From contig NZ_CP112880.1 in the NCBI RefSeq assembly GCF_028747205.1, positions 1,364,001-1,428,000 on the forward strand: a stretch of 64,000 bases of DNA, read 5' to 3'. Under the pieces are notes generated by a model, which did no database searches, had not been told where the DNA came from, and saw only the letters and a list, made by a program, of their open reading frames with translations. This DNA is from Streptomyces sp. CA-278952. Lineage in GTDB: Bacteria; Actinomycetota; Actinomycetes; Streptomycetales; Streptomycetaceae. Made by a program: the position numbers and the translations under genes. Below, piece by piece: positions 44,478 through 63,279 of this stretch; positions within the stretch are counted from its first letter, which is position 1; each line of letters opens with the position of its first letter.

Positions 44478-44478
44478 G

Positions 44479-47759: not shown

Positions 47760-50057
47760 GTGGGGTTGGAGTTCGGGCACGATCTCGGGCCGCTTCGTGC
47801 CCTGCGGGGGCTGCCGCTCTCCCCGCTCGTCACGGGGTACCAGCACGTCCAGGCCCAGCAACAGGCCCTGGGTCTAAGGCACATCGGCGACGCGTTGGTG
47901 GAGCGCGGGCGGGGGCTGCGGGTGCTCGACGGGCTCTTCGAGGAGGGCGCCGGGCGCCGCTGGCAGCACATCGGCCCCGATCGGCTCCGTCGGATCGGCG
48001 CCTTGCGCGGTGAGGCGTACCGTCCGCTCCTCGCCCGGCTGGAGACGGTGCAGCTCCAGGACCCCGCTGCCCTGCGCCGTATCCTCCTGTACCAGCTCGT
48101 CGAACTGCTCCAGGCCCACCCGCGGCACTCCGAGCCCGGAACCGCCGTCTCCCTGGGGGTCTGCCCGACGGAGGCGGCCGCCCTCGTCCGTGCGGCGGCC
48201 GCCTGCCACCGCCTCACTGGCGAACAACGGCGTGCGGCGGAGGAGTTGGAGGACTCCTGGGACATCGGGAGGGTGCGGCGTGCCGCCGGGCTGGCGTCCC
48301 TGCTCCCGGCGGGGGGCGGGGGCGACGCGCTGCTGCGGCGGCGGTTCGCGGACATCGCCGCACGCGCGAGGGAAGCCGACGTCGCCCTCGAAGCCGCGCA
48401 GGAGGCCGAGCGGTCGGGCGATGCCCGTGCGGCCGAGGACGGCTTCCTCAAGGCCGCCCGGCTGGCCTCCGACTGCCCCCGCGCCCGGCTCGCCCTCGTA
48501 CGGCTGTACCGACCGGCGGTCGAGGGGAGCGCGGGGCCCGGCGCTGTACTGACCGCCCGTCACGTGTCGGATGCCGTGGCGTTGTCGCTCCGTCCTTCGC
48601 CATCGCCATCGCCTTCGCCTTCGCCATCGCCTTCGCCTTCGCCATCGCCATCGCCATCGCCATCGCCCGCCGACGCGACGCCCGAGCGGCAGGTCGTCCG
48701 GCTGACCCGGGTCCCGGGCGGGCCGGCCGTAATCGCCGAGATCGCCGGCGCCTCCTCGGCGGTCGGCTGGGTGGACCGGGACCCGCCGTTCGGCCAGGAG
48801 GTCCGCTACGCCGTGTTCCCGCTGCGGGACGGCCTGGTCGACGGCCCTCCCGTGGTCTCCGACGTCCTGCTCGTCGCCCCGGAGGTGTCCGCGTTGCGGT
48901 CCAGCACGGGGCCGGGCCGTATCGACGCCGCGTGGACCGAGCCGTCGGGGGCGCTGGACGTACGGGTCGTGCTCGACGGCCCCGACGGGCGGGTGGACGG
49001 CGTCGGGGTACGTCCGGGCGCGCTGACCGCGACCGGCCTGGACGTCGGTACGTACGTGCTCCGCGTCCACTGCCGCTACCGGTCGCCGGACGCCAGCGTG
49101 GTCGAGTCGGCGGGCACGGACCGTCACATCACCGTCCGCCCCTGGCCCGCTCCCGTGCACCGGCTCGATGCCACGGCGGGCCGGGGGTCCGTCCGGTTCA
49201 CCTGGAGCGGCGGACAGGACGCGGACGTGCGCCTCGTCTGCTGGCCGGCCGATCCGCCGGAACCGGGGACCGAGCTGACCCACGACCCGGCGGCACCCTG
49301 GCCCGCTCCGCTGTCCTGGGAGGCGGTGGCGGACGGCCTGGCGCCTCCCCCGGGCTCCGTCACCCGGGTGTCCGCCCTGGCCGTTCTCGGACCGCACGCC
49401 GTGGCGGGTCCCGGCCTGCTCGTCGAGTGCCCGCCCGCCGTGGCCGGGGTGCGCGTGGAGCGGGTCGGCGGGGGCCGGGCCCGCGTCACCTTCGACTGGC
49501 CGGCGGAGACGGGCCAGGTGGCGGCCACCGTGGAACAGGACGGCGTGAGCTCCTCGCACCGCGTGACCCGCAGCACTTACGTCCGGGAGGGGCTGTACAT
49601 GGACGTGCCGCCCTCCGCCTTCACCGTCGCACTCTCCGCCGCCCCTCGCACGGCGGACGCGGTGGTGGTCCCTCCGCCCGGCAGCGCGACCGCCGTCCCC
49701 GCGGACATCTCCGTCAGCTACCGCATCGTTCCCGGCCCCCGCCGAGGGCTGCGTCGCGGGCCCGCGCTGCTACGGGTCGCCCTGTCCTGTGCGGGTGAAG
49801 CACCTGACCGGCTGCCGGAGTTCGTCCTGGTGGCGAGGGCGGGCGGCGGGCGCGCCCCGATCCGGCCGCTCGACCACACCGACGGGAGGACCCTGCTCCG
49901 GCTCGACGGTGGCGCGTTGTCCGCCGGCAGTCCCGTCGAGCTGCCGGTGCCGGCGGACCTCCGGCCGCCCTACGTCCTGCGCGGTTTCCTCCTCGGCGAC
50001 GGAGCCGCCGACGTACGACTCGACGAGCCCTCTCCCCCGACCCTGGTGGTGCGCTGA
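47760..50057 (+). CDS. Large helical and beta-domain protein with Pro-Ser linker, head of GTPase cluster
   Basis: I do not recognise this 765-residue protein by name. The N-terminal about 275 residues are helical and Arg/Ala-rich (EEGAGRRWQHIG, AALRRILLYQLVELL). A 24-residue Pro-Ser run comes next. Then about 450 residues of strands in fibronectin III-like units follow (VSALRSSTGPGRIDAAWTEP, HRLDATAGRGSVRFTWSGG, VRVERVGGGRARVTFDW). It has no signal or membrane helix. It may be a scaffold or recognition protein. The GTG at 47760 is used. Its stop is one base from the next ATG, so it belongs to the cluster operon. Confidence 0.78.
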   Translation: MGLEFGHDLGPLRALRGLPLSPLVTGYQHVQAQQQALGLRHIGDALVERGRGLRVLDGLFEEGAGRRWQHIGPDRLRRIGALRGEAYRPLLARLETVQLQDPAALRRILLYQLVELLQAHPRHSEPGTAVSLGVCPTEAAALVRAAAACHRLTGEQRRAAEELEDSWDIGRVRRAAGLASLLPAGGGGDALLRRRFADIAARAREADVALEAAQEAERSGDARAAEDGFLKAARLASDCPRARLALVRLYRPAVEGSAGPGAVLTARHVSDAVALSLRPSPSPSPSPSPSPSPSPSPSPSPSPADATPERQVVRLTRVPGGPAVIAEIAGASSAVGWVDRDPPFGQEVRYAVFPLRDGLVDGPPVVSDVLLVAPEVSALRSSTGPGRIDAAWTEPSGALDVRVVLDGPDGRVDGVGVRPGALTATGLDVGTYVLRVHCRYRSPDASVVESAGTDRHITVRPWPAPVHRLDATAGRGSVRFTWSGGQDADVRLVCWPADPPEPGTELTHDPAAPWPAPLSWEAVADGLAPPPGSVTRVSALAVLGPHAVAGPGLLVECPPAVAGVRVERVGGGRARVTFDWPAETGQVAATVEQDGVSSSHRVTRSTYVREGLYMDVPPSAFTVALSAAPRTADAVVVPPPGSATAVPADISVSYRIVPGPRRGLRRGPALLRVALSCAGEAPDRLPEFVLVARAGGGRAPIRPLDHTDGRTLLRLDGGALSAGSPVELPVPADLRPPYVLRGFLLGDGAADVRLDEPSPPTLVVR
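48594..48665 (+). repeat. Twelve 6-bp repeats coding the Pro-Ser linker
   Basis: CC[T/A]TCG repeats twelve times without interruption and encodes Pro-Ser dipeptides. It keeps the frame, so linker length could vary between strains. Confidence 0.95.
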
Positions 50058-50058
50058 C

Positions 50059-51318
50059 ATGACGAGCGTCATCTGTCCCTACTGCTTCGACCGCGCACCG
50101 GCCGCGCGCCTGCCGTACCGCTGCCTGATGATGGCCACCGGGGTACGCGGCGGCGACCCGTGCGACGCCGAACCCGACGACGTATGGGCCGGCTTCATGG
50201 GGCCGGGCATGCCGCCGTCGCGGCGGCTGCGCGGACCGGTCTTCCCCGCGCCCCGCACGCTCGCGGCCCTTCGGGGCTCCTCGACCCGGCAGCCGTGCCC
50301 CCGTTGCGGGGTGGCCACCTCGGTGCGGGTCTGCCGCGGCTGTCACAACGACTTCCCCAGCGAGTACTGCGACCAGGACAGCCGCATCATCGCCCTGGTG
50401 GGCGCCAAGGCCTCCGGCAAGAGCACCTATGTGTCGGTGCTCGTCAACGAACTCCGGGGCCGGGTGGGCCGGGAGTACGACATCTCCCTGCCGGCGATGG
50501 GTGCCGAGACCCAGCGCCGCGACCGGGAGATGGAGGAGGACCTCTACGAACGGCTGCGGCTCCCCGACACGACGCGCCCGGCGGCGATGGGCTTCAACGA
50601 CCCGCTGCTCTACCGGCTGAGCGTGCCGCGCCGGGGCCGGTACGCCAAGGGCAGCAGACACACCACCCTGGTGTTCTTCGACGCGGCGGGCGAGGACCTC
50701 AAGAGCGAGGAGGCGATGGCCAGATACACCCAGTACCTGGCGGCCGCCGACGGCATCATCCTGCTCGTCGACCCGCTCCAGATGGGTTCGGTGCGCGACC
50801 GCAGCGCGACCGCCGACGGCCCGCCGCTGCCCGCCGTCGAGACGTCCCCGCAGCAGATCGCCGCCGGCCTCGCCGCCCAACTGCGCTCCCACGGACGGAG
50901 TGTGTCGCGGGGCCGGGTCACCACACCGATGGCCGTCGCCGTGACGAAGACGGACGCGCTGAGGCCGCTGCTCGGGTCGCATTCGCCGCTGCTGCGCAAC
51001 GCCGATCACACCGGCGGCGAACAGGACGACGACGACCGGCTCGCCGTACACGAGGAGCTGCGGTCCCTGCTGAGCGACTGGGACTCCGGGGTGCTCTGCC
51101 GCCAACTGGAGAACGACTTCGCCGAACTGTCGTACTTCGGCCTCTCCGCGCTGGGCGCTCCGCCGCCCGCCGGCGCACCGGCCGACGCACCGAAGTCGGG
51201 ACCACAGCCCCTGCGGGTGGAGGACCCGCTGCTCTGGCTGCTGGGGCGGCGCGGCCTGATCCAGGTGCGCAGGAGCCGGCCGGAGAGCCGGGACCGCACG
51301 GGGAAGGCCGGCTCATGA
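50059..51318 (+). CDS. Zinc-ribbon TRAFAC-class GTPase (soluble)
   Basis: The 419-residue protein starts with cysteine pairs CPYC (6-9) and CPRCG...CRGC (80-95), a zinc ribbon. The GTPase follows: P-loop GAKASGKS (115-122), switch-like DxxG in FFDAAGED (Asp208) and TKTD (296-299) as the base-recognition motif. It has no membrane helix. This is the double-ribbon GTPase type found next to GAP1 proteins in bacterial conflict systems. The ATG is one base after the previous stop; the end overlaps the GAP1 start (ATGA). Confidence 0.9.
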   Translation: MTSVICPYCFDRAPAARLPYRCLMMATGVRGGDPCDAEPDDVWAGFMGPGMPPSRRLRGPVFPAPRTLAALRGSSTRQPCPRCGVATSVRVCRGCHNDFPSEYCDQDSRIIALVGAKASGKSTYVSVLVNELRGRVGREYDISLPAMGAETQRRDREMEEDLYERLRLPDTTRPAAMGFNDPLLYRLSVPRRGRYAKGSRHTTLVFFDAAGEDLKSEEAMARYTQYLAAADGIILLVDPLQMGSVRDRSATADGPPLPAVETSPQQIAAGLAAQLRSHGRSVSRGRVTTPMAVAVTKTDALRPLLGSHSPLLRNADHTGGEQDDDDRLAVHEELRSLLSDWDSGVLCRQLENDFAELSYFGLSALGAPPPAGAPADAPKSGPQPLRVEDPLLWLLGRRGLIQVRRSRPESRDRTGKAGS

Positions 51319-53783
51319 GCCTGGGACAGCTGCACTACACCTCGGCGCCGCCCGGCCCGGACGGCTCGGGCTTCCGCTTCACCGCGCTCACCCCGGGGCT
51401 GCCGCAGGCGGTGCTCCGGGAGGCGGAGCAGATCATCGGGTACGAGCCACCCCGGAACGCCCCGTCCCGCCCGTCCCCGGCCGAACTCGGCGCCTTTCCC
51501 ACGGCGTTCAGTTACAGCGAGCTGTCGGACGGAAGCAGACTGCTGGCCCGCACGGTCTACACGGGCGCCGATTACAGCGGGCGCTGGGGCAACTTCCACG
51601 CCCACGCGGTGCACCTGGCCCCGGGCCGGTATCTGCCGGACCGGGCCCTGCCCGTCAGCGCCTGGGAGTCCCCCGGCTGGGCCACCGCCACTCCCGAGTC
51701 AGGCGCACCGCCGGCCCTGGCCGCCCTGCCGCCCTCCGCGCTGCTGGACCCGGCCGGGCTGGTCGCCTTCGCCGTCTCCAGGGAGCCCTGGCTCGCCGCC
51801 GTCTTCACCGACCTCCAGCGCCAGGCCGAGGACGAAGCAGCCCCACAGGTCGTCCTCGTGGAGCGGGACAGCGCCGATGTCGCGCGCTGGGTGGCCCTGG
51901 CAAGCGCGGTGCTCCCCCGGGACGACGCCCACCGGCTGACGTTCACCACCTACTCCCGGCGCCCGCACCTCGCCGGGCAGCGCATCATCGGTGTCCTGCC
52001 GGACGACGCCCACGGGCTCGCCGGTTCGGGGCGCCGCTACCGGGTCCACGACTGTGCCGTCCCGCCCGTCCCGGACGGGCCGGAGCCGAGCCTCTGGGCC
52101 GTGGCCGCCGCCCGGATGTGGTCGGCCGGCGCCTTCGGGCTCCTCCATCACGCCCATCAGCTCCCGGGAGACCCGTTCACCGCCGGCCCCGTGGCGGCGC
52201 TCGCGCTGTGCGCCGGTATCGAGCTGCCGGCGCCGCATCGCACGGCGGCGGCGCAGTGGGTGTGCGAGCACCCCGCCGAGCTGGACGGCGAGGATCTGGA
52301 CCGGCTCGTCCACACCCTGGCGACACCCCGGCAGGAGGCGGCGCCGGCGGCCGAGATCACCGCGCTGGCCGAGCTGTTCGCACGGGTGGGAGGCAACCTG
52401 CGGGCGGAGGCCGCCGCCCCGCTCGCCGCCCGGCTGCTGGTCGCCGCCGTCCGCTCCGCCGATCCGGTACGCCCGCCGCGCCGCGAGACGCTGACCGACC
52501 AGGTGGCCCGGCAGCTCGCCGCCGAGCTGGGTCCGGAGCTGCGGGCCGGGATCGAGGACGCGGAGAGCGGCTTCGCGCGCCCGCTGCGGCTGCTGCGGGT
52601 GGCCGGTCTCCTCGATGTGGACTGCTCCGACCTGGTACCGCTGCTCGCCCACCGGCTGGCGTCGGCGCTGCTGGCCGATCCGTCCGTGTACGGGGGTGGG
52701 CTCCACGAGGCCCTCCCGGAGCTGCCCGGCCTCCACAGCGCCCTGCTGCGGGAGCTCGAAGCGGCGGCCCAGGCCGGTCCGGCCACCGTCACCGTGCTCC
52801 TGGAGCGCGCTCCTGTACCGCTGGAGAGCGGCGAGGCCCTGCCGTATCTGCGCATGTGCGGCTGGGCGGCCCGTCGCCCGGCCGGGGGCACGGACGGGGA
52901 CCGGACCCGTGAGCTGCGGGCCGTGCTGGAGGCGGCGGGCGTCTCCGTCCTCGCGCGTCCGCCGCTTCTCCGCATCGCCTACCGCCTGGTGTGGGGCTCC
53001 ACCGCGCCGACGCCGGAGGAGGCCAGGTACGACCTGCTGGAGAGGGGCGCGGGGCTCCACCACGCGGCGGGGACCTGGCCGTTCCTCGTGACGGCCGCCC
53101 TCCACGGCCGGCCTGGGGACCCGCAGGCGGACGAGCTCGCGCACGACCTCCTCAAGGCCTTCCCCGAGCAACTCCAGGACCGCGACCGGGCGGCGCTCCT
53201 GCTGCTGGACTTCTCGCGCGACCTGCGGGCGGGCGCCGCTCCGCCCGGCTGGGTCGACCGGGTTCTCGGCCTGCGGAGGAGTGCGGAACCGGTGAACCCG
53301 CCGGTGCTGGAGCGCGTCTTCGGCGTTCTCGCGCACCGTCTGCTGACCGACCACGGCGTGGGCCACGAGCTGGACGCCCTGATCCGCAGCGGCGACGCCG
53401 ACCTCTGCGCGGCCTACGAACGGGCGGCCCGGGCCGAGGAGGTGGGGAGCAGGCTGCTGCGCGACCCGGACTACTTCGCGGACCTCTTCGTCGGCTGGAA
53501 CGCCCACCCCCAGGCGGGCGGCGGCTGGGGCCGGGTCCGCGGCGCCCTGCTGGACGGGGTGCTGCGTCCGGCGGCGCGGGCGCTGAGCGCGGAGGATCTG
53601 GCGGCCGTCGAGACGGCGCTCTCCACGAGGGGCGCACGGCACGCGGAGGACTTCCGCGCCTGGAACCGGCCCGGTGCTCTGGGCCGGCTCGGGCTGCGGT
53701 TCGGCGGGCGGGACGGCCGTCCGGGCAAGGCGTCGTCCCGCCGTCGGGGCTTCGGGGACCGCGACCGGGACGGTGGCGTCTGA
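51315..53783 (+). CDS. GAP1-type GTPase-associated protein (first copy)
   Basis: The 822-residue protein is a GTPase-associated protein 1-type partner. The N-terminal domain begins LGQLHYTSAPPG, has FHAHAVHL and TFTTYSRRP, followed by a long helical array (about 300-780) and a basic tail (DFRAWNRPGALGRLGLRF). It is coupled to the GTPase gene by an ATGA overlap and to the next GTPase gene by a TGATG overlap. A paralogue lies at 60760-63279. It should modulate or read the nucleotide state of its GTPases; the details are inferred from family context. Confidence 0.88.
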   Translation: MSLGQLHYTSAPPGPDGSGFRFTALTPGLPQAVLREAEQIIGYEPPRNAPSRPSPAELGAFPTAFSYSELSDGSRLLARTVYTGADYSGRWGNFHAHAVHLAPGRYLPDRALPVSAWESPGWATATPESGAPPALAALPPSALLDPAGLVAFAVSREPWLAAVFTDLQRQAEDEAAPQVVLVERDSADVARWVALASAVLPRDDAHRLTFTTYSRRPHLAGQRIIGVLPDDAHGLAGSGRRYRVHDCAVPPVPDGPEPSLWAVAAARMWSAGAFGLLHHAHQLPGDPFTAGPVAALALCAGIELPAPHRTAAAQWVCEHPAELDGEDLDRLVHTLATPRQEAAPAAEITALAELFARVGGNLRAEAAAPLAARLLVAAVRSADPVRPPRRETLTDQVARQLAAELGPELRAGIEDAESGFARPLRLLRVAGLLDVDCSDLVPLLAHRLASALLADPSVYGGGLHEALPELPGLHSALLRELEAAAQAGPATVTVLLERAPVPLESGEALPYLRMCGWAARRPAGGTDGDRTRELRAVLEAAGVSVLARPPLLRIAYRLVWGSTAPTPEEARYDLLERGAGLHHAAGTWPFLVTAALHGRPGDPQADELAHDLLKAFPEQLQDRDRAALLLLDFSRDLRAGAAPPGWVDRVLGLRRSAEPVNPPVLERVFGVLAHRLLTDHGVGHELDALIRSGDADLCAAYERAARAEEVGSRLLRDPDYFADLFVGWNAHPQAGGGWGRVRGALLDGVLRPAARALSAEDLAAVETALSTRGARHAEDFRAWNRPGALGRLGLRFGGRDGRPGKASSRRRGFGDRDRDGGV

Positions 53784-55417
53784 TGGGCGGGCCGGCCGGG
53801 GCGGCGGTCTGGCTGACGGTGGCCGTCGGGGCGGGTGTGTGCCTGTTCCGCGCGTTCTGGGAGTTCCTCGCCCTGGCGCTCGGCGCCTCCGTGAAGGTCC
53901 TCGGCCCCCGGACCCCGGGCACTCCCGATCCCCGGGTCCCGCCCGTCGGATCCGAGCCCGCGCAGCGCGCGTACTGGTCCCGGCTCATGTGGGTGGACGC
54001 GTCCACCTCCACCCGGGCCGCCGCCTCGGTCATCCGGCGCCGGTTGCTGGGCCGCTGGATGGCCGTCACGGCCCGGCGCATGTTCACGGGACGGCAGCCC
54101 TCCACCGGTTACGGCGGCCACTGGCTCGCCCGCCTCGGGTTCGTCCTCGTGGCCCCGGGCACCGCGCTGGGCGCGATCGCCGGGGCGCTCCTGGTCTCGG
54201 CCGTCATGGTGCTGATCCACCTGGTGATGTGGCTGCTGGTCGGGCTGGTGGGGCTGGCCGCGGTCGCCGGGGTCGCCGTGCTGCGCGGTGCGGACCGGGC
54301 CGGCGCCCTGGTGCGGCGGATCCGGATGAAGTGCCCGTACCCCGGGTGCTACCGGCCCTTCCCGCTCGCCGTGCACCGCTGTCCCGGCTGCGGATCGGCC
54401 CACCGGGAGCTGCGCCCGGGCAGGTTCGGTGCGCTGTGGCACGTCTGCGCCTGCGGGCGCCGGATCGTCGCCGTCTCGTCGGCCGGGCGCGACCGGCTCG
54501 CCGTCGAGTGCCCGCACTGCGACCGGCCGCTGCCGGCCGGGATCGGCCGGGAGCGCATCGTGCACGTACCGGTCATCGGTGGGACCTCGTCGGGCAAGAC
54601 GATGCTGATGGCGGCCGCGGTCGCCGGGCTGCACGCGGGGGGCGGGCGGGGCGCGCCGAAGGTGTCGTTCGCGACGGCCGACGACCGGCGTGACGTGGTC
54701 GATCTGAACAGCCAGCTCAAGAACGCCGGTTGGGTGCGCAAGACTCAGGGCGGCCAGCCTCGCGCCCTGATGCTGCGGGTCACCCACCGCCGCAGACGCC
54801 GGCTGCTGTACCTCTACGACCCGATGGGTGAGTCGCTGTACGACGTGGACTCCACGCGCCGCCAGGAGTATCTGGCCCACGCCGACGGCGTGATCCTGGC
54901 CGTCGACGTCCTGGCCGACCCCCAGGTGCGCCGTTCCCTCTCGGCGGAGGAGGAGGAGCTGGCACGCGCGGCCCATCCGTCGGATCCGGGTCCGTGGCAG
55001 ACGTACCAGACCTTCACCGGTGAGCTCTCGGCGCTGGCCGGACGACGGCGGCGTGGCCGGCTGCCGTTGGCGGTGGTGGTCACGAAGCGGGACGTCCTGG
55101 ACCGGATCGAGCGTCTGCGGGTCCCCCCGACGGGGGTCGGCCCCTGGCTGGCCACGGTCGGCCTGGACCCCTTGGTCCGGGACATCGGGCACCGGTTCCG
55201 GACCCGGCGGTTCTGGGCGCTCAGCGCCTACGCAGCCACCGGGACGGGTCCGCTGGTCAGCGAGCAGCAGCGGGCCGCGGAGGCGGTGCTGTGGATCCTC
55301 GCCCGCACCGGACTGCGCGTCGGCAAGCTGCTGCCCGAGGGGGGTCGCGAGGAGCTGCCGACCGGGTCCGTGCCGCACCCGCGCGATGCCCCCGCACAAG
55401 ATCGTTCAACCCGCTGA
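53783..55417 (+). CDS. Membrane-anchored zinc-ribbon TRAFAC-class GTPase
   Basis: The 544-residue protein is a second GTPase, with hydrophobic helices at about 6-36, 117-143 and 145-167. Several Cys pairs follow (CPYPGC, CPGCG, CACG, CPHC; about 184-246), forming one or two zinc ribbons. The GTPase has P-loop GGTSSGKT (266-273), the DxxG-like YDPMGE and TKRD. It is distinct from the soluble GTPase and puts the switch on the membrane. The ATG overlaps the GAP1 stop. Confidence 0.9.
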   Translation: MGGPAGAAVWLTVAVGAGVCLFRAFWEFLALALGASVKVLGPRTPGTPDPRVPPVGSEPAQRAYWSRLMWVDASTSTRAAASVIRRRLLGRWMAVTARRMFTGRQPSTGYGGHWLARLGFVLVAPGTALGAIAGALLVSAVMVLIHLVMWLLVGLVGLAAVAGVAVLRGADRAGALVRRIRMKCPYPGCYRPFPLAVHRCPGCGSAHRELRPGRFGALWHVCACGRRIVAVSSAGRDRLAVECPHCDRPLPAGIGRERIVHVPVIGGTSSGKTMLMAAAVAGLHAGGGRGAPKVSFATADDRRDVVDLNSQLKNAGWVRKTQGGQPRALMLRVTHRRRRRLLYLYDPMGESLYDVDSTRRQEYLAHADGVILAVDVLADPQVRRSLSAEEEELARAAHPSDPGPWQTYQTFTGELSALAGRRRRGRLPLAVVVTKRDVLDRIERLRVPPTGVGPWLATVGLDPLVRDIGHRFRTRRFWALSAYAATGTGPLVSEQQRAAEAVLWILARTGLRVGKLLPEGGREELPTGSVPHPRDAPAQDRSTR

Positions 55418-55478
55418 CGGAGCCGGACGCGGTCGTTAAGGTCGGTCAGGTCCGAGAAGAGAGAGACGGTTCACGGCT

Positions 55479-55625
55479 ATGCCGGTCGTTACGCCGAACA
55501 TCGCGCGGGGGCGTCGGCTGCTCCTCACCCTGTTCGTCCTCGCCTGCCTGGCGGTCCTCGTCGGGCTGCTGGCCTGGGGTTGGGTTCTCCTCGACGACCA
55601 GGTGACCGAGGCGCTCGGCGAGTGA
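55479..55625 (+). CDS. 48-residue single-helix membrane peptide
   Basis: An ATG at 55479 opens 48 codons: a basic N terminus (PNIARGRRLLL), one hydrophobic helix (about 13-37, TLFVLACLAVLVGLLAWGW) and an acidic end (DDQVTEALGE). It lies between the membrane GTPase and the vWA gene, which start and end close to it. The ribosome site is weak (AGAGAG). The clean membrane topology and cluster location make it likely real. It may be a membrane partner or toxin-like peptide; unproven. Confidence 0.6.
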   Translation: MPVVTPNIARGRRLLLTLFVLACLAVLVGLLAWGWVLLDDQVTEALGE

Positions 55626-55684
55626 CGACACCACGTACGCACCACGGAACGAGGACGTGCACACCATGACAAGGAGGGCTTCGA

Positions 55685-56371
55685 GTGAGTGACATTCCCG
55701 GCGGTCCCATGGCGAACCGGCCGGTCCACTTCATCTGGCTGCTGGACTGCTCCTACTCCATGCAGGGCGAGAAGATCGGACAGCTCAACTACGCGATCCG
55801 GGAGGCGGTTCCCGAGATGCGGTCGGTCGCCCATGACAACCCGGCGGCCCAGCTCCTGCTGCGTACGCTGACGTTCTCCACGGAGACGCGGTGGCACCAC
55901 AAGGACCCGGTGCCGGTCGACGACTTCACCTGGCAGGACGTCCAGGTCGACGGCACGACCAACCTGGGCGAGGCGCTCGAGGTGGTCTCCCGGGAGCTCC
56001 AGACGCCGCCGATGCCGCAGCGGGCCCTGAAACCCGTGCTGGCCCTGGTCTCCGACGGGGTGCCGACGGACGACTGGAAGGCGGGTCTGCGCGCGCTGGA
56101 CGCCACCCCGTGGGGCAGGAAGGCCGTGCGGGTGGCCATCGCGATCGGGGCGGACGCCGATCGCAGTGTCCTCCAGGAGTTCCTGGGCAACCCCGAGCTC
56201 CAGCCGTTGGACGCCAACAGTCCCAAGCAGTTGGCGGCGGCGATCCGCTGGGCGTCGACCGCCGCGGTCAAGGCCGCGTCGCAGCCGGTGGCCGGCCCGT
56301 CCGACATCACGGTCAAGCAGCCGCAGTACGCGCCACCGCAGTTGGACGACGACGATGACGACGTCTGGTGA
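55685..56371 (+). CDS. TerY-like von Willebrand A domain protein
   Basis: The 228-residue protein is one vWA domain with a complete metal-dependent adhesion site: DCSYS (Asp21, Ser23, Ser25), the Thr in DGTTNLG and the Asp in SDGVPTDD. The tail ends in an acidic run (DDDDDDVW). It matches the TerY part of TerY-P triads. The GTG at 55685 has AAGGAGG upstream; a Met at residue 9 is an alternative. Its end overlaps the PP2C start (GTGA). Confidence 0.9.
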   Translation: MSDIPGGPMANRPVHFIWLLDCSYSMQGEKIGQLNYAIREAVPEMRSVAHDNPAAQLLLRTLTFSTETRWHHKDPVPVDDFTWQDVQVDGTTNLGEALEVVSRELQTPPMPQRALKPVLALVSDGVPTDDWKAGLRALDATPWGRKAVRVAIAIGADADRSVLQEFLGNPELQPLDANSPKQLAAAIRWASTAAVKAASQPVAGPSDITVKQPQYAPPQLDDDDDDVW

Positions 56372-57264
56372 GCGCTCCTGAGCAGCCGCTGTGGGAGACG
56401 CTCGAGCACAGCGTGCGGGGAGTGAACAAACAGATCAACCAGGACTGGTACGCCGCCGAGGGATCCGGGACGGAAGGTGATCCGTTGATCCTCTCGGTGG
56501 CGGACGGCCATGGCTCGGCGGTGCACGCCCGCAGCGAGATCGGGGCGCGCTGTGCTGTCGACCTGTTCGGCCACCAGGCCCGTACGTTCGCCCAACTGGC
56601 CCGCGCCGAGGGGCCGGACGGAGCACCCAGCCTGAGCTGGCTCATGAACTACGCGCGCAACGAGCTGCCCCGGCAGCTGGTGGCCGCCTGGCAGGAGAGG
56701 GTGCTCGCCCACTGGGACCACAACCGGGGGACGGTGGACCCGGCGGCCGAGCCGCCCCGCAAGGACCAGAAGCTGCTGCTGTACGGGGCCACGCTGGTCG
56801 GTGCGGTGCTCACCCCGCGGATGTTCGCGGCCTGGCAGCTCGGCGACGGCGAGCTGACGGTGACCGACGCCGACGGAGCGATCGCGCTGCCGCTGGCACC
56901 GGTGGAGGCGGATCTCGGCGACGAGACCGAATCCCTCTGCAGCCGCCAGGCATGGAAGATGATCCGGGTGCACTGGGCCCCGGTCGTCGCACCGGACCGC
57001 ACCCCGCGGATGATCGCCCTGTCGACCGACGGCCTGTCCAAGAGCTTCGCGTCCGACGAGGGCTTCACCCAGTTCATGACCGGCCTGGACCAGCGGCTCT
57101 CGAAGGACGGCCGCACCGACGGCGTACGCGACGCCCTGCCCGGATGGCTGGCCGAAGCGGCCCGCTACTCCGGTGACGACACGACCCTGGTCGCTGCCCG
57201 GCGGCCCGACCTCATCGCGGCGGACGACAGCGCCGCGGCGGACGAACGACGGAGTGACGCATGA
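56368..57264 (+). CDS. PP2C-type protein phosphatase of TerY-P triad
   Basis: The 298-residue phosphatase has metal-binding residues in the expected order: NQDWYA, VADGHGS, LSTDGLSK and GDDTTLV. It should remove phosphate from Ser/Thr targets of the neighbouring kinase. It is coupled by overlaps on both sides to the vWA and kinase genes, so the three are made together. Confidence 0.92.
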   Translation: MSAPEQPLWETLEHSVRGVNKQINQDWYAAEGSGTEGDPLILSVADGHGSAVHARSEIGARCAVDLFGHQARTFAQLARAEGPDGAPSLSWLMNYARNELPRQLVAAWQERVLAHWDHNRGTVDPAAEPPRKDQKLLLYGATLVGAVLTPRMFAAWQLGDGELTVTDADGAIALPLAPVEADLGDETESLCSRQAWKMIRVHWAPVVAPDRTPRMIALSTDGLSKSFASDEGFTQFMTGLDQRLSKDGRTDGVRDALPGWLAEAARYSGDDTTLVAARRPDLIAADDSAAADERRSDA

Positions 57265-58592
57265 GCGGCATGCTCGACGGAGGAACGCACCTCACCGCCG
57301 ATGACGGGGAGTCCGTCCGCGTCATCGACATGCTCGGAGCCGGCGGCCAGGGGGAGGTGTACCGGGTGGAGACCCCCTCCGGCGAACGCGCCCTCAAGTG
57401 GTACTACCCGTCCTGCGCGACGCCCGAGCAGGACGCGATCGTACGGGAGCTGGTGACCCGGGACTTCGACGACGACCGATTCCTCTGGCCCACGGCGTAC
57501 GTGCCCTCCGGCACGGGGGCGTTCGGCTATCTGATGGATCTGCGCCCGGACCGGTTCAAGGGGCTGCCGGACCTCTTCCGCCGCAGGCTGCGGACCACGA
57601 CGCGCACCCTGCTGACCGCCGCCCTCTACACGGTGGAGGCCTACCAGGCCCTGCACTCCCGGGGAATCGCCTACCGGGACATCTCCTGGGGCAACATCTT
57701 CTTCGACCCGGCCACGGGCGACGTCCTGGTCTGCGACAACGACAACGCCGTGGTCGAAGGGGACAGCAGCGGGATCTCGGGGACGATGGAGTTCATGGCG
57801 CCGGAGCTGGTGCGCGCCGAGCCGGGGGCCAGACCCGGCACCCAGTCGGATCTGCACTCGCTGTCCGTGCTCCTCTTCATGCTTCTGATGAACCATCACC
57901 CGTTGAAGGGCAGGCAGGAGTTGGAGATCCACTGTCTCGACGAGGCGGCGGAGAAGCGGCTGTACGGGAAGCGGCCCCTGTTCGTCTTCGACCCCGACGA
58001 CACGGCGAACAGCCCCGACCCCGTCGAACAGTCCACGGTCCTGGACACCTGGGCGGCGGCTCCTCCGGCTCTCCAGGACCTCTTCACGCACAACTTCACC
58101 GTGGGGCTGCACGAGCCGACCGCCCGGGTGCGCGAATCGCAGTGGCGGGACGCGCTGCGGTCCGTCCTGGACGCGGTCGTGGACTGCGCCGACTGCGGCC
58201 GCCAGAACATGACGCAGCCCGGGGCGACCACCGCCGGGTCCTGCTGGTCCTGCCGCAGTGCCCTGGTCCTGCCGCCCCGGCTGAGCATCATCACCCGCCT
58301 GCCCCGGTCCGAGCGCCATGTCCGGCTGCGACGGGCAGCCCGCGTCCATGAGCATCACCTGGCGCCGGAGCCGTCACGCCACGACTACAGCGACGCCACC
58401 CTGGTGGCCGAGCTGACCGAACACCCCAGCAGGCCGGGCAAGTTCGGGCTGGCGAACCGTTCGTCGACGAGCTGGACCGGCACGCGTTCCGACGGCACCT
58501 CGCAGGAGATCGCCCCGGGCCAGACCGTTCCGCTCCGGGCGGGCCTGCGACTCGATCTCGGCGGGGCCCAGGCAGCGGTCCACGCGAAGTGA
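57261..58592 (+). CDS. TerY-P triad protein kinase with zinc ribbon
   Basis: The 443-residue protein has a kinase domain (about 20-305): Gly loop LGAGGQGEVYRV, Lys46, catalytic Asp140 in a YRDISWGN loop (Tyr in place of His), and Asp159 in CDND where DFG is usual. It keeps the catalytic Lys, Asp and Asn, so it is probably active. A zinc ribbon follows (Cys309, 312, 328, 331) and a beta-rich tail (about 375-443, EIAPGQTVPLRAG). It is the third gene of the triad and the last of the cluster operon. Confidence 0.92.
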   Translation: MSGMLDGGTHLTADDGESVRVIDMLGAGGQGEVYRVETPSGERALKWYYPSCATPEQDAIVRELVTRDFDDDRFLWPTAYVPSGTGAFGYLMDLRPDRFKGLPDLFRRRLRTTTRTLLTAALYTVEAYQALHSRGIAYRDISWGNIFFDPATGDVLVCDNDNAVVEGDSSGISGTMEFMAPELVRAEPGARPGTQSDLHSLSVLLFMLLMNHHPLKGRQELEIHCLDEAAEKRLYGKRPLFVFDPDDTANSPDPVEQSTVLDTWAAAPPALQDLFTHNFTVGLHEPTARVRESQWRDALRSVLDAVVDCADCGRQNMTQPGATTAGSCWSCRSALVLPPRLSIITRLPRSERHVRLRRAARVHEHHLAPEPSRHDYSDATLVAELTEHPSRPGKFGLANRSSTSWTGTRSDGTSQEIAPGQTVPLRAGLRLDLGGAQAAVHAK

Positions 58593-58600
58593 GCCGAGTA

Positions 58601-58637
58601 GGCGTGGCCGCCGGGACGCTTCCCCGGAGGCCACGCC
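58601..58637. terminator. Strong hairpin between convergent operons
   Basis: GGCGTGGCC (58601-58609) pairs perfectly with 58629-58637. Inside, CCGGG pairs with CCCGG around a 7-base loop, leaving one mismatch. It lies nine bases past the triad stop and 21 from the convergent small-protein stop, fitting a bidirectional terminator. Confidence 0.75.
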
Positions 58638-58657
58638 GTACGGCCCGAAGAGCTGGG

Positions 58658-58987
58658 TCAGAGCCCGAGCAGCTGCCCGATCTCCTGCGCCAGGGCGATC
58701 CCGCCGCTGCCCGCCGCGAGCCCCACCGTCAGGGTCTCCAACGCCTGCCGAATCCGCCCTTGGTCGGCGGGGCGCCCCTCCTCCCCCGCCCGGACCAGCT
58801 CTCCGCGCACGATCTCCGCCTGCGCGGCGAGCTCCGGCCGTGCCGTATCCCGGCGCACGAGCTGTACGAGGTCGGCGGCGAGCTTCAGCGCTTCGGCCGG
58901 GGGTGTGCCGTAGGTGACCTGGATCTTTCCGTTGTCACCGAAGTTGCTCGGGCCGGAGATGTCGCCGTGGAAGTTGTAGGTGCTCAT
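58658..58987 (-). CDS. Small helical protein with N-terminal GDISGPSN motif
   Basis: The 109-residue protein begins with a Gly/Asn-rich motif (residues 3-27; core GDISGPSNFGDNG) and continues as a helical domain (about 30-109, ALKLAADLVQLVRRD, ending ALAQEIGQLLGL). The motif is closely copied at the C terminus of the adjacent membrane protein (16 of 25 residues the same). Design resembles small adaptor domains that carry a prion-like motif in Streptomyces. No catalytic residues. The ATG follows AGGAG. Function inferred. Confidence 0.8.
   Translation of the reverse strand: MSTYNFHGDISGPSNFGDNGKIQVTYGTPPAEALKLAADLVQLVRRDTARPELAAQAEIVRGELVRAGEEGRPADQGRIRQALETLTVGLAAGSGGIALAQEIGQLLGL
58907..58981 (-). 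other. Shared Gly/Asn-rich motif, copy 1 (N-terminal)
   Basis: This segment codes residues 3-27 of the small protein. Its pattern (TYN-x-x-GDI-x-GPSN-x-G-x-NG) matches the motif at 59095-59169. See the finding on amyloid-type signalling. Confidence 0.8.
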
Positions 58988-58994
58988 GTCTCTC

Positions 58995-59048
58995 CTGGTG
59001 GTCGGTCGCGTGGTGCCAGGGCTGGTGGTCGGTCGGGTGGTGCCGGGG
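58995..59048. repeat. Two 27-bp tandem repeats abutting a stop codon
   Basis: Two near-identical 27-base units (CTGGTGGTCGGTCG[C/G]G...) fill the gap between the two motif genes. The array ends two bases before the stop of the upstream gene (59050-59052). Confidence 0.9.
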
Positions 59049-59049
59049 C

Positions 59050-60531
59050 TCAGGGAGAGCCGCCCCCGGCGGCCGCCGGCGCCTGGGGTCCCTGGCCGTA
59101 AGCGGCGGAGATCTGTCCGTTGTTGCCGATGTTCGACGGGCCGGTGATGTCGCCGGAGATGTTGTACGTCTGGGTGTTGATGACCTGCTGGGCCCGGTCG
59201 AAGGAGCTGGTGTCCACGTTGTGGTCGGTCAAGAACCGCTCGGTCGCGATGAGCACCCCCTGTTGGAGCCGGTGGAGAAAGTCCTGCGAGTCCGTGCGCT
59301 CCGAGTGACCGAGCTGGTCCCATGAGGCGACCCGTTCGCGCAGGCTGTCCGTGGCGCCGTAGTCGTACAGCGCGCGCTTCTTGGTGATCTCCTTGCGCCA
59401 CTTCTCCAGTGCGCGGGCGCGCAGCCTGTTCGCGGAGTTGCGGCGTGCGATCCGCCCGGGGGCTCCGGTCAGCGCGGACCAGGTGTGCGAGGTGGCGAAC
59501 CGGATCAGGCTCCAGACGCGTTCGAACCCGTCGCGCGGGAGGTAGTCCGATCCGTAGTAGCGGGCGTGCACCGGGGGGATGCAGTAGGCGGCGACCTCCC
59601 AGGAGAGGCTGGGGTGCTGGAGCCGGGCCCGCAGGTGCATCGAGACGATGACCCGGCCGCCCTCGCCGACCCGTTCCAGGCTGAGGTAGGTACGCGTCCC
59701 CGCACCGGGTTTGAGGAGCCCCGCCTTGACCAGAAGGGGCGGGATCTCGCTGTTGGGCGGACGCAGCCGGTCCGGCAGCACCTCGTCGCCGAGGTAGTAG
59801 ACCTGGGGTCCGAGCACGTAGAGCCGGTTCTGCGCCCGCAGCCCTTCGAGGCCGGCGAGTTTTCCCAGCTCCCGGGCCAGGTAGGTGTGGAGGTCGACGG
59901 CGTCGAAGGGGATCAGGGTCTTCTTGCCGCCGCCGGGGGCGTCCGCGGGGCGGCTGATGTCGATCGGCTGCCAGACCGTCTCCTTGATCTTGCTCCCGCT
60001 GCCGACGAAGGGGTTCTCCCGCTCCGCGCTCCGGGTGTACGGCATCATGTTCGGCCGCCGCAGCGCGCGCAGCCGCTGCTCGACCTCGTCGGCCACCTCG
60101 GGTACGAGGTCCTGGGGGCGGGTGGCGGAGAAGCGGGCTTCGAGGGCCGCGGCACGCCCCTGGGCCTCGGTCCGGCGCACCAGCCACCAGGAGCAGCCGA
60201 GCACGAGCGGCAGAAGCGCGGCGGCCCCTGCCGCCACGCCGGACGAGCCTGCGACCAGGCCGCCGACCGCGCTCAGCACGGCGAGCCACCAACCCGCGCA
60301 GAGCCAGGCCAGCCTGCGGTCGCGGAGGTCCGTCCGCCGGGTCGCGCGGGCCGCGTGGCGCGCCAGCGCGAGCAGGTTCACGCCCAGCGGCAGTCCGGTG
60401 GCGGTGAGGCGGTCCCCCGAGAGCTCCTGGTGCGCGTACCGGGCGAACCCGTCGTCCAGGTGCACCGACGAGCACAGCAGTCTGGTGGTCGCGTCCTTGT
60501 CGTACGTCGGCAGAGCGGGCACATGCCGCAT
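59050..60531 (-). CDS. Membrane protein with C-terminal GDITGPSN motif
   Basis: The 493-residue protein has a soluble N-terminal segment, a hairpin of two hydrophobic helices (about 74-117, LAWLCAGWWLAVLSAVGGL) and a large cytoplasmic domain (about 120-450) I do not recognise; it includes DAVDLHTYLARELGKLAG and VSMHLRARLQHPSLSWEVAAY. The C terminus holds a Gly/Asn-rich motif (residues 455-479) copied at the N terminus of the next gene. No enzymatic motif. The ATG at 60531 follows GGAAGGGGG. It could be the membrane effector of the cluster. Confidence 0.8.
   Translation of the reverse strand: MRHVPALPTYDKDATTRLLCSSVHLDDGFARYAHQELSGDRLTATGLPLGVNLLALARHAARATRRTDLRDRRLAWLCAGWWLAVLSAVGGLVAGSSGVAAGAAALLPLVLGCSWWLVRRTEAQGRAAALEARFSATRPQDLVPEVADEVEQRLRALRRPNMMPYTRSAERENPFVGSGSKIKETVWQPIDISRPADAPGGGKKTLIPFDAVDLHTYLARELGKLAGLEGLRAQNRLYVLGPQVYYLGDEVLPDRLRPPNSEIPPLLVKAGLLKPGAGTRTYLSLERVGEGGRVIVSMHLRARLQHPSLSWEVAAYCIPPVHARYYGSDYLPRDGFERVWSLIRFATSHTWSALTGAPGRIARRNSANRLRARALEKWRKEITKKRALYDYGATDSLRERVASWDQLGHSERTDSQDFLHRLQQGVLIATERFLTDHNVDTSSFDRAQQVINTQTYNISGDITGPSNIGNNGQISAAYGQGPQAPAAAGGGSP
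59095..59169 (-). other. Shared Gly/Asn-rich motif, copy 2 (C-terminal)
   Basis: This segment codes residues 455-479 of the membrane protein, with core GDITGPSNIGNNG. It is followed only by a disordered Gln/Pro/Ala/Gly tail of 14 residues. Confidence 0.8.
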
Positions 60532-60759
60532 CGCATCCCCCTTCCGGTGCGCCCGGGCCGGCGCACCCCCGCACAGTCTTCTACACCACGGCCGGGCGCA
60601 CGTCCCGCGACGGCCCTCGGGGCAGCGCCTGACGCAGCGTAGGGATTCTGTCCCCGTCCTTGATAACGTCGCCCCCGCGGCTGCGGACTTCTTCCCCCGA
60701 CCCCAGCCGTACGGGGAGGGCACGGGGATCGGGCGCGGCAGGACGAAGAGGGCCGACAG
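60532..60759. promoter_or_regulatory. Divergent region between membrane protein and second GAP1 gene
   Basis: The 228-base gap holds both promoters. TTGATAACG at about 60660 stands out as AT-rich, and may be part of a promoter. No clear operator was found. Confidence 0.4.
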
Positions 60760-63279
60760 ATGAGCCTTGCACAGGTGCACTACACCTCGGCCGCGCCGGG
60801 GGACGAGGGAACGGCGGGCCGGTTCACGGCGGTCGGCCCAGGAGTGTCGGGTGCGCTGCTGGCGGAGATCGAGCCCTTGGTGCGCTACGAGTTTCCCGGG
60901 GGCGTCCCGGACCGGCCGTCCGGCGACGAACTGCGCTCGCTGCCGCAGGCGTTCGGATACTTCGTGCTGTCCGACGGCAGTCGGCTGGTGGCACGTTCGG
61001 CCCCGGTACGGGACACGGGCGGCCACGCGGGGCCGGGCGTACGGTTCCACGCGCACGCGGTACACCTGCCGCCGGGGGTTCCGCTGCCGGGCGACCGGCT
61101 GCCGGTCGAGGCGTGGCGGTCGCCGCACTGGGTGGCGGTGACGCCGGACGGGGCGATACCGGACCCGTTGACGCTGCCGCCGGGTCCGGCGGCGGTCTCC
61201 GAGGGCCTCGACGACTTCGCCGTCTCGCGCGGCCCCTGGCTCGCGGCCGTGCTGGCGGATCTGCGCCGGGCGAGCGACGCGGAGACGAGCGGCGGCAGGC
61301 CGGTGGTGCTGGTGGAGCGGCAGTGCGCGGACGTGGCCCGGTGGCTGGGGCTCGCGTCGGTCACCCTGCCGAGGGAGAGCGCGGAGCGGCTGACGTTCAC
61401 CACGTACACCCGGCGGCCGGAGAGTTCGCCGTCGCGGGTGGTGGGGGTGGGGCCCGAGGACGCGGCGGAGGCACGGGCCGCGGGGCTGCGGGTGCACGAG
61501 TGCGCGGGGCCGCCTCCGGCCGACGTCGGCCCGGCCGACGCGTGGGCGGCGACGGCGGCACGGGTCTGGCGGAGCCGGTCGCCGGAGCTGTTCGGTGAGG
61601 CGCGGGAGCTGCCCGGGGAGCCGTTCGCGGCGGGCCCGTTGGCCGTGACCGCGCTGTGTGCGGGGGTCGAGCTCGGGCCGGACGGGCGTGCGGCGGCGGC
61701 CGGCTGGGCCGCCGATCGCCCGTACGCGCTGGACGCCAAGCGCACGGGCCAGTTGGTGGAAGCCCTCACCTCGCCCGCCGTCGACGACCGTACGGGCCCC
61801 GAATTCGACGCGGCCGGGCGGCTGTTCGGCGCACTGGAGGGCCGTTGCCCGGCCGCGGTGACCGCCCCGCTCGCGGCGATGCTGGTCACGGAAGCGGTAC
61901 GGGGCGGCAACGGCTCGCTGGAGCTGCCGCACCGGGAGGCGTTCGCCGGTCCGGAGGGGGCGGAGGTCGCTGAGCGGCTGGGTCCGGAGATCCTGACCGA
62001 GCTGGCCGACACGGTCGGCTCACGCTCGGTGGGGCGCACCATACAACTCTTGCGGGTGGCGCGGCTGTTGGACGTGGACGGCAGGGAGTCGCTGCCAGGG
62101 GCCATTGACCGGCTGGCGCCCGCTCTGCTGGCGGAGGCGGCGGCGCACGAAGGCCCCCCGGGCTTCGCACCGGCCCTGCTGGAGCTGCTGGACGAGCAGT
62201 TCGAGGTGCGGACGGCGCTGCTCGGCGCGCTGGACCGGATCGCGCCCGAGGACCCCGGGGCGGTGGCCCGGTTCCTGGAGCGGGTCACGCTGCCGTTCAC
62301 GGGTACGCAGGCGTTGCCGCATCTGCGGATGTGCGCCGAGGTGCCGGAGGCGATGGCGACCCTGGGCGGTGACCGGGCGGCGGTGTGGCACCGGGTGCTG
62401 CGGGCGGCCGGCCTCTCCCCCTTCGCCGAGCCCCTGGTCCTGCGCACGGCGGCCGGCCTGGTGTGGGAGGACCGGGCCCCGACGGTCGGGGAGGCCCGGC
62501 TGCTGCTGGACGCGGCCACCTCGGACGCGCACCGCGCGGCCGGTACCTGGGCGCGCCTGGTGGACGCGGCGCTCGGGGCGTCCACCGGTGGCACGTCCGC
62601 CGCCGGCGCCCCCACCGCCGGCACGTCCACCGGTGGCACGTCCGCTGCCGGCACGTCCGCCGCCGGCACGGACGAGGCGGCCGGGCTCGCCCACGACCTG
62701 CTGCGCGGCTTCCCCGAGGAGATCGGCGGCCGGGAGCGGGCAGGACTCCACCTGCTGGTCCTCGTCCGCGAACTGCGCACGGGCGCCCCGGAACCCGGCT
62801 GGGCGGAGCGGGTCCGCACGCTGTGCGCGCAGGCGGAGCCGGTCGAACCGGCGCTCCGGGAGCGGGCGCACGCGGCCCTGGTCGAACGGCTGCTGGCCCC
62901 GGACCGCCCGGGGGCGGAGCTGTACGACTTCGTCCACGGCGACGACGCCGAGCTGATCGCCGCGTACGACCGGGCCGCCCGGACGGAGACCGTACGGGCG
63001 CGGCTGCGCACCCAGCCCGCCTACGCGGCGGACTGCTTCACCGTCTGGACGGCCCACCCGCACGCGGGCCGCGCCTGGCCGCCGGTGGCCGCAGCCCTCC
63101 TCGACGACGTCCTGCGCCCCGCCGTACGCGCCCTGTCGGCCGAAGCCGTGGCGGAGGTCGAGGAGACGGTGGGCCGCACGGGCAGCAGCGGCCGGGCCGA
63201 CGCCTTCCGCGACTGGAACCGGGTCAGCGCCCTGGGGCGGCTGGGCCGCCGGATCGCGGGGCGGGTGCGGCGGGGGTGA
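60760..63279 (+). CDS. GAP1-type GTPase-associated protein (second copy)
   Basis: The 839-residue paralogue of the first GAP1 protein starts LAQVHYTSAAPG, has FHAHAVHL and TFTTYTRRP, a helical array, and ends FRDWNRVSALGRLGRR. A flexible insert at about 608-637 is made of six 5-residue repeats (STGGT, SAAGT). No GTPase gene is beside it on its strand; it may act on one of the two GTPases in the cluster. The ATG at 60760 follows GAAGAGG. Confidence 0.88.
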   Translation: MSLAQVHYTSAAPGDEGTAGRFTAVGPGVSGALLAEIEPLVRYEFPGGVPDRPSGDELRSLPQAFGYFVLSDGSRLVARSAPVRDTGGHAGPGVRFHAHAVHLPPGVPLPGDRLPVEAWRSPHWVAVTPDGAIPDPLTLPPGPAAVSEGLDDFAVSRGPWLAAVLADLRRASDAETSGGRPVVLVERQCADVARWLGLASVTLPRESAERLTFTTYTRRPESSPSRVVGVGPEDAAEARAAGLRVHECAGPPPADVGPADAWAATAARVWRSRSPELFGEARELPGEPFAAGPLAVTALCAGVELGPDGRAAAAGWAADRPYALDAKRTGQLVEALTSPAVDDRTGPEFDAAGRLFGALEGRCPAAVTAPLAAMLVTEAVRGGNGSLELPHREAFAGPEGAEVAERLGPEILTELADTVGSRSVGRTIQLLRVARLLDVDGRESLPGAIDRLAPALLAEAAAHEGPPGFAPALLELLDEQFEVRTALLGALDRIAPEDPGAVARFLERVTLPFTGTQALPHLRMCAEVPEAMATLGGDRAAVWHRVLRAAGLSPFAEPLVLRTAAGLVWEDRAPTVGEARLLLDAATSDAHRAAGTWARLVDAALGASTGGTSAAGAPTAGTSTGGTSAAGTSAAGTDEAAGLAHDLLRGFPEEIGGRERAGLHLLVLVRELRTGAPEPGWAERVRTLCAQAEPVEPALRERAHAALVERLLAPDRPGAELYDFVHGDDAELIAAYDRAARTETVRARLRTQPAYAADCFTVWTAHPHAGRAWPPVAAALLDDVLRPAVRALSAEAVAEVEETVGRTGSSGRADAFRDWNRVSALGRLGRRIAGRVRRG
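62581..62670 (+). repeat. Six 15-bp coding repeats in second GAP1 protein
   Basis: Six contiguous 15-base units (TCC[A/G]CC...GGCACG) encode Ser/Thr-Ala-Gly repeats. The first GAP1 protein lacks this insert. Confidence 0.9.

Follow-up and report, generated by a model that had tools for sequence, protein, structure and literature searches.

The locus described here lies in Streptomyces sp. CA-278952, within a stretch of 64,000 nucleotides (contig NZ_CP112880.1, positions 1,364,001 to 1,428,000) that was analyzed as a whole and is referred to below as the window. Its genes and features, in window coordinates, are as follows.

47603..60599, no strand: insert of about 13 kb carrying B–K between the resident genes A and L (alignment with L077, L075, L079, and L081)
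47760..50057, + strand: B, 765-aa beta-domain protein in the position of the FNIII component, with a Ser-Pro linker (frame and GC3; homologues adjoin C in related loci)
50059..51318, + strand: C, DO-GTPase2 with N-terminal Cys pairs and GAKASGKS, DAAGE, and TKTD motifs (Pfam PF19993, 3.7e-10; residues from the sequence)
51315..53783, + strand: D, GAP1 with N2, M, and C domains (Pfam PF20013/20014/20052)
53783..55417, + strand: E, membrane DO-GTPase2 with Cys pairs and GGTSSGKT, DPMGE, and TKRD motifs (Pfam PF19993, 7.6e-14; hydropathy; residues from the sequence)
55479..55625, + strand: F, 48-aa microprotein with a single TM segment (hydropathy; counterpart ORFs at 12 of 13 loci)
55685..56371, + strand: G, TerY-like vWA protein with a DCSYS MIDAS motif (Pfam PF00092, 1.4e-5)
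56368..57264, + strand: H, PP2C phosphatase (PP2C_2) with DGHG present (Pfam PF13672, 1.4e-31)
57261..58592, + strand: I, kinase with a zinc ribbon (Cys pairs by eye) and a C-terminal tail (Pfam PF00069, Pkinase, 1.3e-15)
58658..58987, - strand: J, 109-aa protein with the motif at its N-terminus (modeled as disordered) and a four-helix bundle (motif alignment, structure model)
59050..60531, - strand: K, 493 aa, two TM helices, an alpha/beta domain, and a C-terminal motif in a disordered tail (hydropathy, structure model)
60760..63279, + strand: L, apparently a resident orphan GAP1 (GAP1-N2/M/C), adjacent to the module and outside it (Pfam, neighborhoods, tree)

A sequence-only reading of this DNA had described a beta-domain protein followed by a tightly overlapping run of GTPase, GAP1, membrane GTPase, membrane peptide, vWA, PP2C, and kinase genes, and then a convergent motif-sharing pair and a divergent second GAP1; apart from small corrections, we found the same arrangement. 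Genes overlap by 1–4 bp at C/D, D/E, G/H, and H/I, J and K are co-directional and converge on the B–I run with a motif common to both, and L diverges from K. D matched GAP1-N2, M, and C with E-values of 5.9e-43, 5.4e-24, and 2.3e-117, respectively, and no Pfam family was matched by B, F, J, or K at E 0.01. The catalytic motifs look intact, including the P-loops GAKASGKS (C) and GGTSSGKT (E), Walker-B DAAGE and DPMGE, TKTD and TKRD of the two GTPases, DCSYS of the vWA protein, DGHG of the PP2C, and YRDISWGN, DND, and APE of the kinase. Cys pairs can be seen in both DO-GTPases, and the hydropathy profile of E has two N-terminal membrane stretches (residues 3–27 and 115–171) and no C-terminal one. 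An fn3 domain was matched neither by B nor by three of its relatives, and a further relative in L097 gave an fn3 E-value of 0.17, which falls short of the cut-off. Of 13 related loci, 12 (all but L052) likewise hold a small ORF with one TM segment between E and G, and most of these ORFs begin, as F does, with VTP...R.RR; F looks like a genuine gene.

Judged by its sequence features, the B–I run is a member of the GAP1-N2 GTPase systems, of the kinase/PP2C/vWA theme. According to Kaur et al. (2020; PMC7159879), in the section used here, the third theme of GAP1-N2 neighborhoods consists of a kinase beside a PP2C and a standalone vWA protein, the kinase often carries a zinc ribbon and a beta-rich domain, and the theme accounts for 10% of the neighborhoods and is confined to actinobacteria. 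A vWA/PP2C/zinc-ribbon-kinase set also goes by the name TerY-P in the relevant part of PMC11090510. The window holds the features of both: GAP1 with N2, M, and C domains, two DO-GTPase paralogues with the Walker-B glutamate, kinase, PP2C, and vWA domains by Pfam together with the zinc ribbon by eye and, as in TerY-P, a vWA with MIDAS, a PP2C, and a kinase whose zinc ribbon is C-terminal. The earlier identification of GAP1 with GTPases and of the TerY-P triad as known conflict-system parts is thus borne out, as the B–I run matches a published system (PMC7159879, in the part consulted). With the GAP1-N2 systems of that part it shares GAP1-N2/M/C, two DO-GTPases, one of which has membrane segments, the zinc-ribbon kinase, PP2C, standalone vWA, and an actinobacterial host, whereas the motif-matched J/K pair, the F microprotein, and the orphan GAP1 appear nowhere in the text of PMC7159879 examined. 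Likewise, TerY-P triads have the same vWA, PP2C, and kinase with C-terminal zinc ribbon, but in the part of PMC11090510 concerned they are coupled to a restriction system, and here to GTPases/GAP1 and J/K. PADLOC gave no match on the run beyond kinase models on I.

The genome of CA-278952 has two GAP1-C matches, D and L, which lie 7 kb apart, and this speaks for the single device including the second GAP1 that had been proposed earlier. The genus sample of 150 genomes, 46 of which have GAP1-C matches, speaks against it. Among 40 stretches compared from this sample, 18 neighborhoods (L066–L083) have a GAP1 of L's clade without any of B, C, and E–K. The best match of this solitary GAP1 is L in 17 of the 18 and D in the other one, L069, an 8.8-kb contig whose GAP1 stands at the base of the solitary clade in the tree. 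L of the window groups with the solitary GAP1s in the same tree, nearest to that of L075 (92% identical), and D groups with D of L046. L adjoins K only in the window and its close relatives L005, L006, and L046; L006 and L046 look like one and the same genome. GAP1 without the run is also found in L061 and L085, from another clade.

The solitary GAP1 adjoins homologues of the window genes A and Akin in L075, L077, L079, and L081, and these loci show where the insert begins and ends. L077 aligns to the window up to about position 47602 and again from about 60600, and because these two blocks stand only 66 bp apart in L077, B–K can be delimited as an insert of about 13 kb. Similar borders are seen in L075, L079, and L081, with 0.8–3.7 kb of other DNA in the gap; the genes that occupy the insertion spot vary, with an alpha/beta hydrolase-like one in L075 and, in L081, one for a large protein that looks secreted. 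When the best 15–17 candidates per genome were scored, DO-GTPase2 was matched in 24 and DO-GTPase1 in 10 of the 150 genomes, and neither was matched in the 18 genomes with a solitary GAP1, where a divergent GTPase could be missed. Since GAP1s of the solitary clade lie without the run, in genomes without a DO-GTPase match, L looks like a resident orphan GAP1 and not like a part of the device. As a member of the solitary clade that stands next to A in genomes lacking the insert, it was rejected as a device component, and a single device including it is highly improbable. The expected linkage of the second GAP1 to the run therefore failed in the neighborhood survey, in which L-clade GAP1s are scattered without the run, a result that concerns L only. 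What stands of the one-device proposal is that B–I form one published system to which J/K belongs; what does not is L.

Linkage of the motif pair to the run, expected from the same reading, held. With K orthologues defined by a score of at least 400 bits, 16 of the 150 genomes have one (window included); J adjoins K at every one of the 16. The full run, from B and C through GAP1 and E to G, H, and I, is present at 14, the window among them. One exception, L057, lies on a contig of 5.3 kb that breaks off after G. The other, L060, has GAP1, J, and K only, and its genome (G038) has no DO-GTPase2 and no kinase-I match; therefore, the run is not strictly needed. At 12 named loci found with K, which share at least three genomes with the 16-locus set, J, I, H, and G are present without exception, with an insertion of about 4 kb between J and I in L011. 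All 12 are from Streptomyces, as are all named K homologues among the 120 listed of 164. From the kinase side, J/K occurs in 15 of 18 genomes with the kinase. The remaining three have GAP1, B, and the triad (G093), GAP1, B, vWA, and the kinase with no PP2C match (G133), and, on a contig of 4.9 kb, GAP1 and the triad (G081); DO-GTPase2 matches and K orthologues are missing from all three. No J/K match was found at five DO-GTPase loci without a vWA, PP2C, or kinase match (L089–L093). By eye, two of these five loci carry HSP70-like genes.

These counts support the assignment of the J/K pair to the GTPase/TerY-P system. It might instead be an independent two-gene module that merely lies beside the run, with no signaling between them. 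J/K and B–I occupy opposite strands in the window, so that their co-regulation is not given, and G038 retains K/J with GAP1 only. However, the full run accompanies 14 of the 16 K loci even though the outer neighbors of the block vary between clades, and J/K is missing both from the five DO-GTPase-only loci and, as judged by K orthologues, from the three kinase genomes without a DO-GTPase match. We regard mere adjacency as rather improbable.

The motif that joins J and K is 61% identical over 28 residues (E 5e-10). When the 8.2-Mb genome of the organism was searched with the motif peptide, J and K were matched, along with a transporter by chance (E 0.7). We assembled 40 J/K pairs from the window's clade, 28 from loci and 12 from protein lists, in which J and K were paired if their contigs had the same length; 37 of the 40 were unique. 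The K tail fits its own J better than the J of other genomes (82.8 vs 64.2), and the highest of 20,000 permutations reached 71.8, so that none scored as high as the matched pairs. The same comparison gave no signal for the helical part of J (p 0.79) or the K body (p 0.43), which served as controls. A set of 38 pairs, 32 of them unique, from which two pairs had been left out, gave 76.0 vs 59.2, and the signal held after collapse to 31, 23, and 11 K-body clusters. Individual changes are common to both partners, as with GGQNQFG in L059, AGVIG/AGIIG in L051, and NNVNGPSN, one residue shorter, in L009 and L010. For 15 of the 37 K tails, that is, not for most, the J of the same genome is the best or tied-best match, and it is among the top three for 21. 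Mutual recognition of the two motifs would be expected to give this pattern, as would gene conversion, whereas independent drift would not.

In the structure model of K (pLDDT 83, pTM 0.80), the hydrophobic stretches lie in two long helices; there is also an alpha/beta domain and a helical C-terminal part, and most of the motif falls in a tail of low confidence (residues 460–493). In the J model (pLDDT 73), residues 1–27, which contain the motif, are likewise of low confidence and are followed by four helices. Neither model had an informative fold match. The disorder of both motifs in these monomer models would also fit a plain docking tag, with K and J tethered by a small beta-strand or a folded interface and no amyloid or prion-like assembly; the co-variation demands mutual recognition of the motifs only. 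The more distant relatives of K bear on this alternative.

The K search matched 53 of the 150 genomes overall, including weaker matches beyond the orthologues. No GTPase/TerY-P run was seen on inspection of the neighbors of L062–L065, L101, and ten more distant K loci, as would be expected if K/J were an independent module. We compared 48 of the distant loci, 47 from the genus and one from Nonomuraea, 37 of which rest on weak or partial K matches; the duplicates L135–L141 were left out. Of six further stretches, three coincide with L040, L044, and L045, and those in G089, G128, and G022 were left out. Scored against the 700 bp downstream in three forward frames, the distant K tail fits its own downstream region far better than permuted ones (74.0 vs 41.4), and none of 20,000 permutations exceeded 54.4. 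When each tail family was represented by one locus, p was 0.001 for 20 or 16 families and at most 0.015 for 12 broad families, and the signal fades with 6 very broad families (median p 0.019, maximum 0.36). Thirty of the 48 loci exceed the off-family background by 3 sd and 18 do not; no partner motif was matched within 700 bp downstream in L115, L116, L120, and L132, and L133 scores below its median.

The tails fall into about 12 to 20 families, depending on the cut-off. The matched motifs of K and partner are NNFGGNQSVGNTNTTQT and NNFGGNQSTGNTDTTQT in L134 and GGIHGSTFALG and GGIHGSTFAIG in L123, and in L101 the unit NFGNAPGS is repeated in K and has a near copy in the partner. Most partners are about 118–153 aa long, and one is 200 aa (start codons were guessed); the motif lies close to the N-terminus. 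Among the partners tested against Pfam, one is a DUF5955 protein, a name found in no open-access paper searched, and one had no match. CAP12-PCTIR_TIR was matched by the partners in L111, L118, and L134 (1e-25 to 1.8e-26) and PNP_UDP_1 by those in L044, L108, and L122 (2.6e-17 to 3.5e-14); with L124 and L126 (TIR) and L119 (PNP), whose partners resemble these by sequence, five TIR and four PNP partners occur among the 48. Candidate defense protein models of PADLOC (PDC-S35 and PDC-M60C) and its PN-superfamily effector model matched the six TIR/PNP partners tested. The K relatives of L101 and L102 carry FHA domains, which suggests a phospho-input; a pattern search found FHA-like starts in only these 2 of the 48. 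With a distant-K profile, at least 37 more proteins were matched at E 1e-10, at least 19 of them with a precomputed FHA domain, and the named sources among the matches listed are Nonomuraea, [Actinomadura] parvosata, and Amycolatopsis.

K/J is part of a wider two-gene family. The K body is conserved in it and the C-terminal motif variable, and the partner encoded next repeats that motif close to its own N-terminus and adds a small helical, TIR, or PNP/UDP-phosphorylase part. As far as sequence comparison indicates, K holds the conserved place and the partner the swappable, sometimes effector-bearing one. In a tree of K bodies with the tails removed, in which long branches were flagged, the K proteins of the GTPase system form one clade (100/100, 14 rows), as do the TIR-linked ones (100/100, 4 rows), and the PNP-linked ones form one clade together with one further protein. 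Because the GTPase-system K proteins form a single clade, the system captured the pair once and then maintained it, which argues against an independent module. As regards the docking tag, the motif is homotypic and Gly/Asn-rich by eye, differs wholesale between families, and occurs as a repeated unit in L101, and at some loci the protein that carries it has a TIR or PNP domain, a likeness to the amyloid pairs of NLRs. These features count against a plain docking tag, which we consider rather unlikely.

The known systems closest to J/K are the NLR-linked amyloid pairs (BASS/BELL). In the portions of PMC7889193, PMC8086366, and PMC12261475 consulted, these pairs likewise consist of adjacent genes with a short, family-variable motif, N-terminal on one product and C-terminal on the other, the C-terminal copy can stand on a membrane protein, and TIR (in bacteria) and PNP_UDP (in fungi) are named as partners. 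The matched N- and C-terminal motifs of the adjacent genes J and K are thus a feature of BASS pairs. In contrast, no NLR was found with K/J, and K is a protein of about 490 aa with two TM helices; in the K/J family, the TIR and PNP proteins carry the motif at the N-terminus, and the place of the NLR is taken by an FHA domain or a GTPase/kinase system. No NACHT or NB-ARC partner was found: J has only 109 aa, K matches no NTPase family, and the genome search with the motif gave only the chance third match. Some distant-K partners also share domains with CBASS/Pycsar-type effectors (CAP12 TIR by its Pfam name and the PN-superfamily by its PADLOC name, the latter effector model being one that we take to be CBASS-linked), but here these domains are coupled to K by the motif.

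We somewhat favor the view that the B–K insert is a GAP1-N2/DO-GTPase/TerY-P system with the motif-matched pair as its output, in which K recruits J through an amyloid-signaling-like motif. B and the two GTPases, with GAP1, would detect a disturbance near the membrane and apply a threshold to it, and the vWA/PP2C/kinase triad would act as a reversible phospho-switch. A phospho-input of this kind is plausible because FHA domains occur in some K relatives. Once the switch is on, the membrane protein K may expose its C-terminal motif, which, by analogy with NLR/effector pairs, would template the matching N-terminal motif of J, and the resulting membrane-anchored higher-order assembly would act through the helical domain of J and lead to containment, dormancy, or death. 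K would then be a membrane hub that was captured here as the output of a GTPase/kinase switch, without an NLR. In this scheme the gene identities, the linkage, the co-variation of the motifs, and the effector domains of some partners were computed, and the templating, the amyloid nature of the motif, the gating of K/J by the run, the trigger, the outcome, and the role in defense are our inferences.

The threshold-gated defense reading of such systems is itself a prediction of Kaur et al., in the part of PMC7159879 cited above. The run could also serve envelope or developmental homeostasis. The DO-GTPase family is cited as predicted to act in membrane-related stress in the section of PMC11237479 consulted, several genomes have retained L next to A and receptor-like kinases, and the run has the PADLOC kinase matches on I as its only ones. 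A homeostatic role nevertheless appears doubtful in view of the patchy distribution of the system (16 of 150 genomes), the variable insertion site in the window, and the TIR and PNP partners of the sister modules.

The run itself is already known. Pairs of the J/K type have no mention in the open-access literature searched or in the text of PMC7159879 examined, and the passage of Kaur et al. on the GTPase/TerY-P theme names no dedicated effector for it; J/K is a candidate for that output. More tentatively, and at somewhat less than even odds, K/J pairs may be widespread NLR-independent signaling pairs of actinomycetes, in which the hub K, with FHA or GTPase/TerY-P input, would nucleate TIR, PNP/UDP phosphorylase, and four-helix effectors through fast-diversifying, prion-like motifs. 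Whether bacteria have signaling amyloids in NLR-independent pathways is a question raised in the part of a review consulted (PMC7889193). K/J modules provide a concrete and testable candidate, with matched pairs in a genus that has good laboratory strains and with partners that carry well-studied enzyme domains, and these tagged pairs hint at a previously unrecognized way for bacteria to trigger an alarm.

The spot between the resident lipoprotein-like gene A (so judged by eye) and the resident orphan GAP1 gene L is a variable insertion site, the contents of which differ among the window and the comparison loci L075, L077, and L081.

Content of the gap between A and the orphan GAP1
Window: 47603-60599, insert of genes B-K
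L077: 66 bp
L075: hydrolase-like gene
L081: large, secreted-looking protein

Adjoining this site, two neighbouring kinases with periplasmic-binding-protein domains are located at 41994-46659, and their homologues lie close to the orphan GAP1 in L075, L077, L079, and L081. Within the insert, gene B, encoding a beta protein, contains a Ser-Pro coding repeat of ~80 bp (48595-48675), likely a flexible linker or an unstable tract.

On the sequence tree, the orphan GAP1 clade, comprising L (60760-63279) and the GAP1s of L066-L083, is nested among the system GAP1s. When the best 15-17 candidates per genome were scored, none of the 18 other genomes with an orphan-clade GAP1 gave a match to DO-GTPase1 or DO-GTPase2.

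GAP1 also accompanies kinase I in L084, L097, and L099, where neither a DO-GTPase match nor J/K, the adjacent genes with a matched short motif, was found. The vWA/PP2C/kinase triad is complete in L097 and L099, and no PP2C match was found in L084. These three loci represent a GTPase-less form of the system.

A vWA-like gene (L062:8122-8913) stands immediately upstream of a distant relative of K, the two-TM membrane protein, an arrangement that hints at further vWA-K links elsewhere. In L060 (genome G038), GAP1, J, and K are the only system genes remaining, with GAP1 convergent to J/K, and this reduced form suggests a direct tie from GAP1 to J/K.
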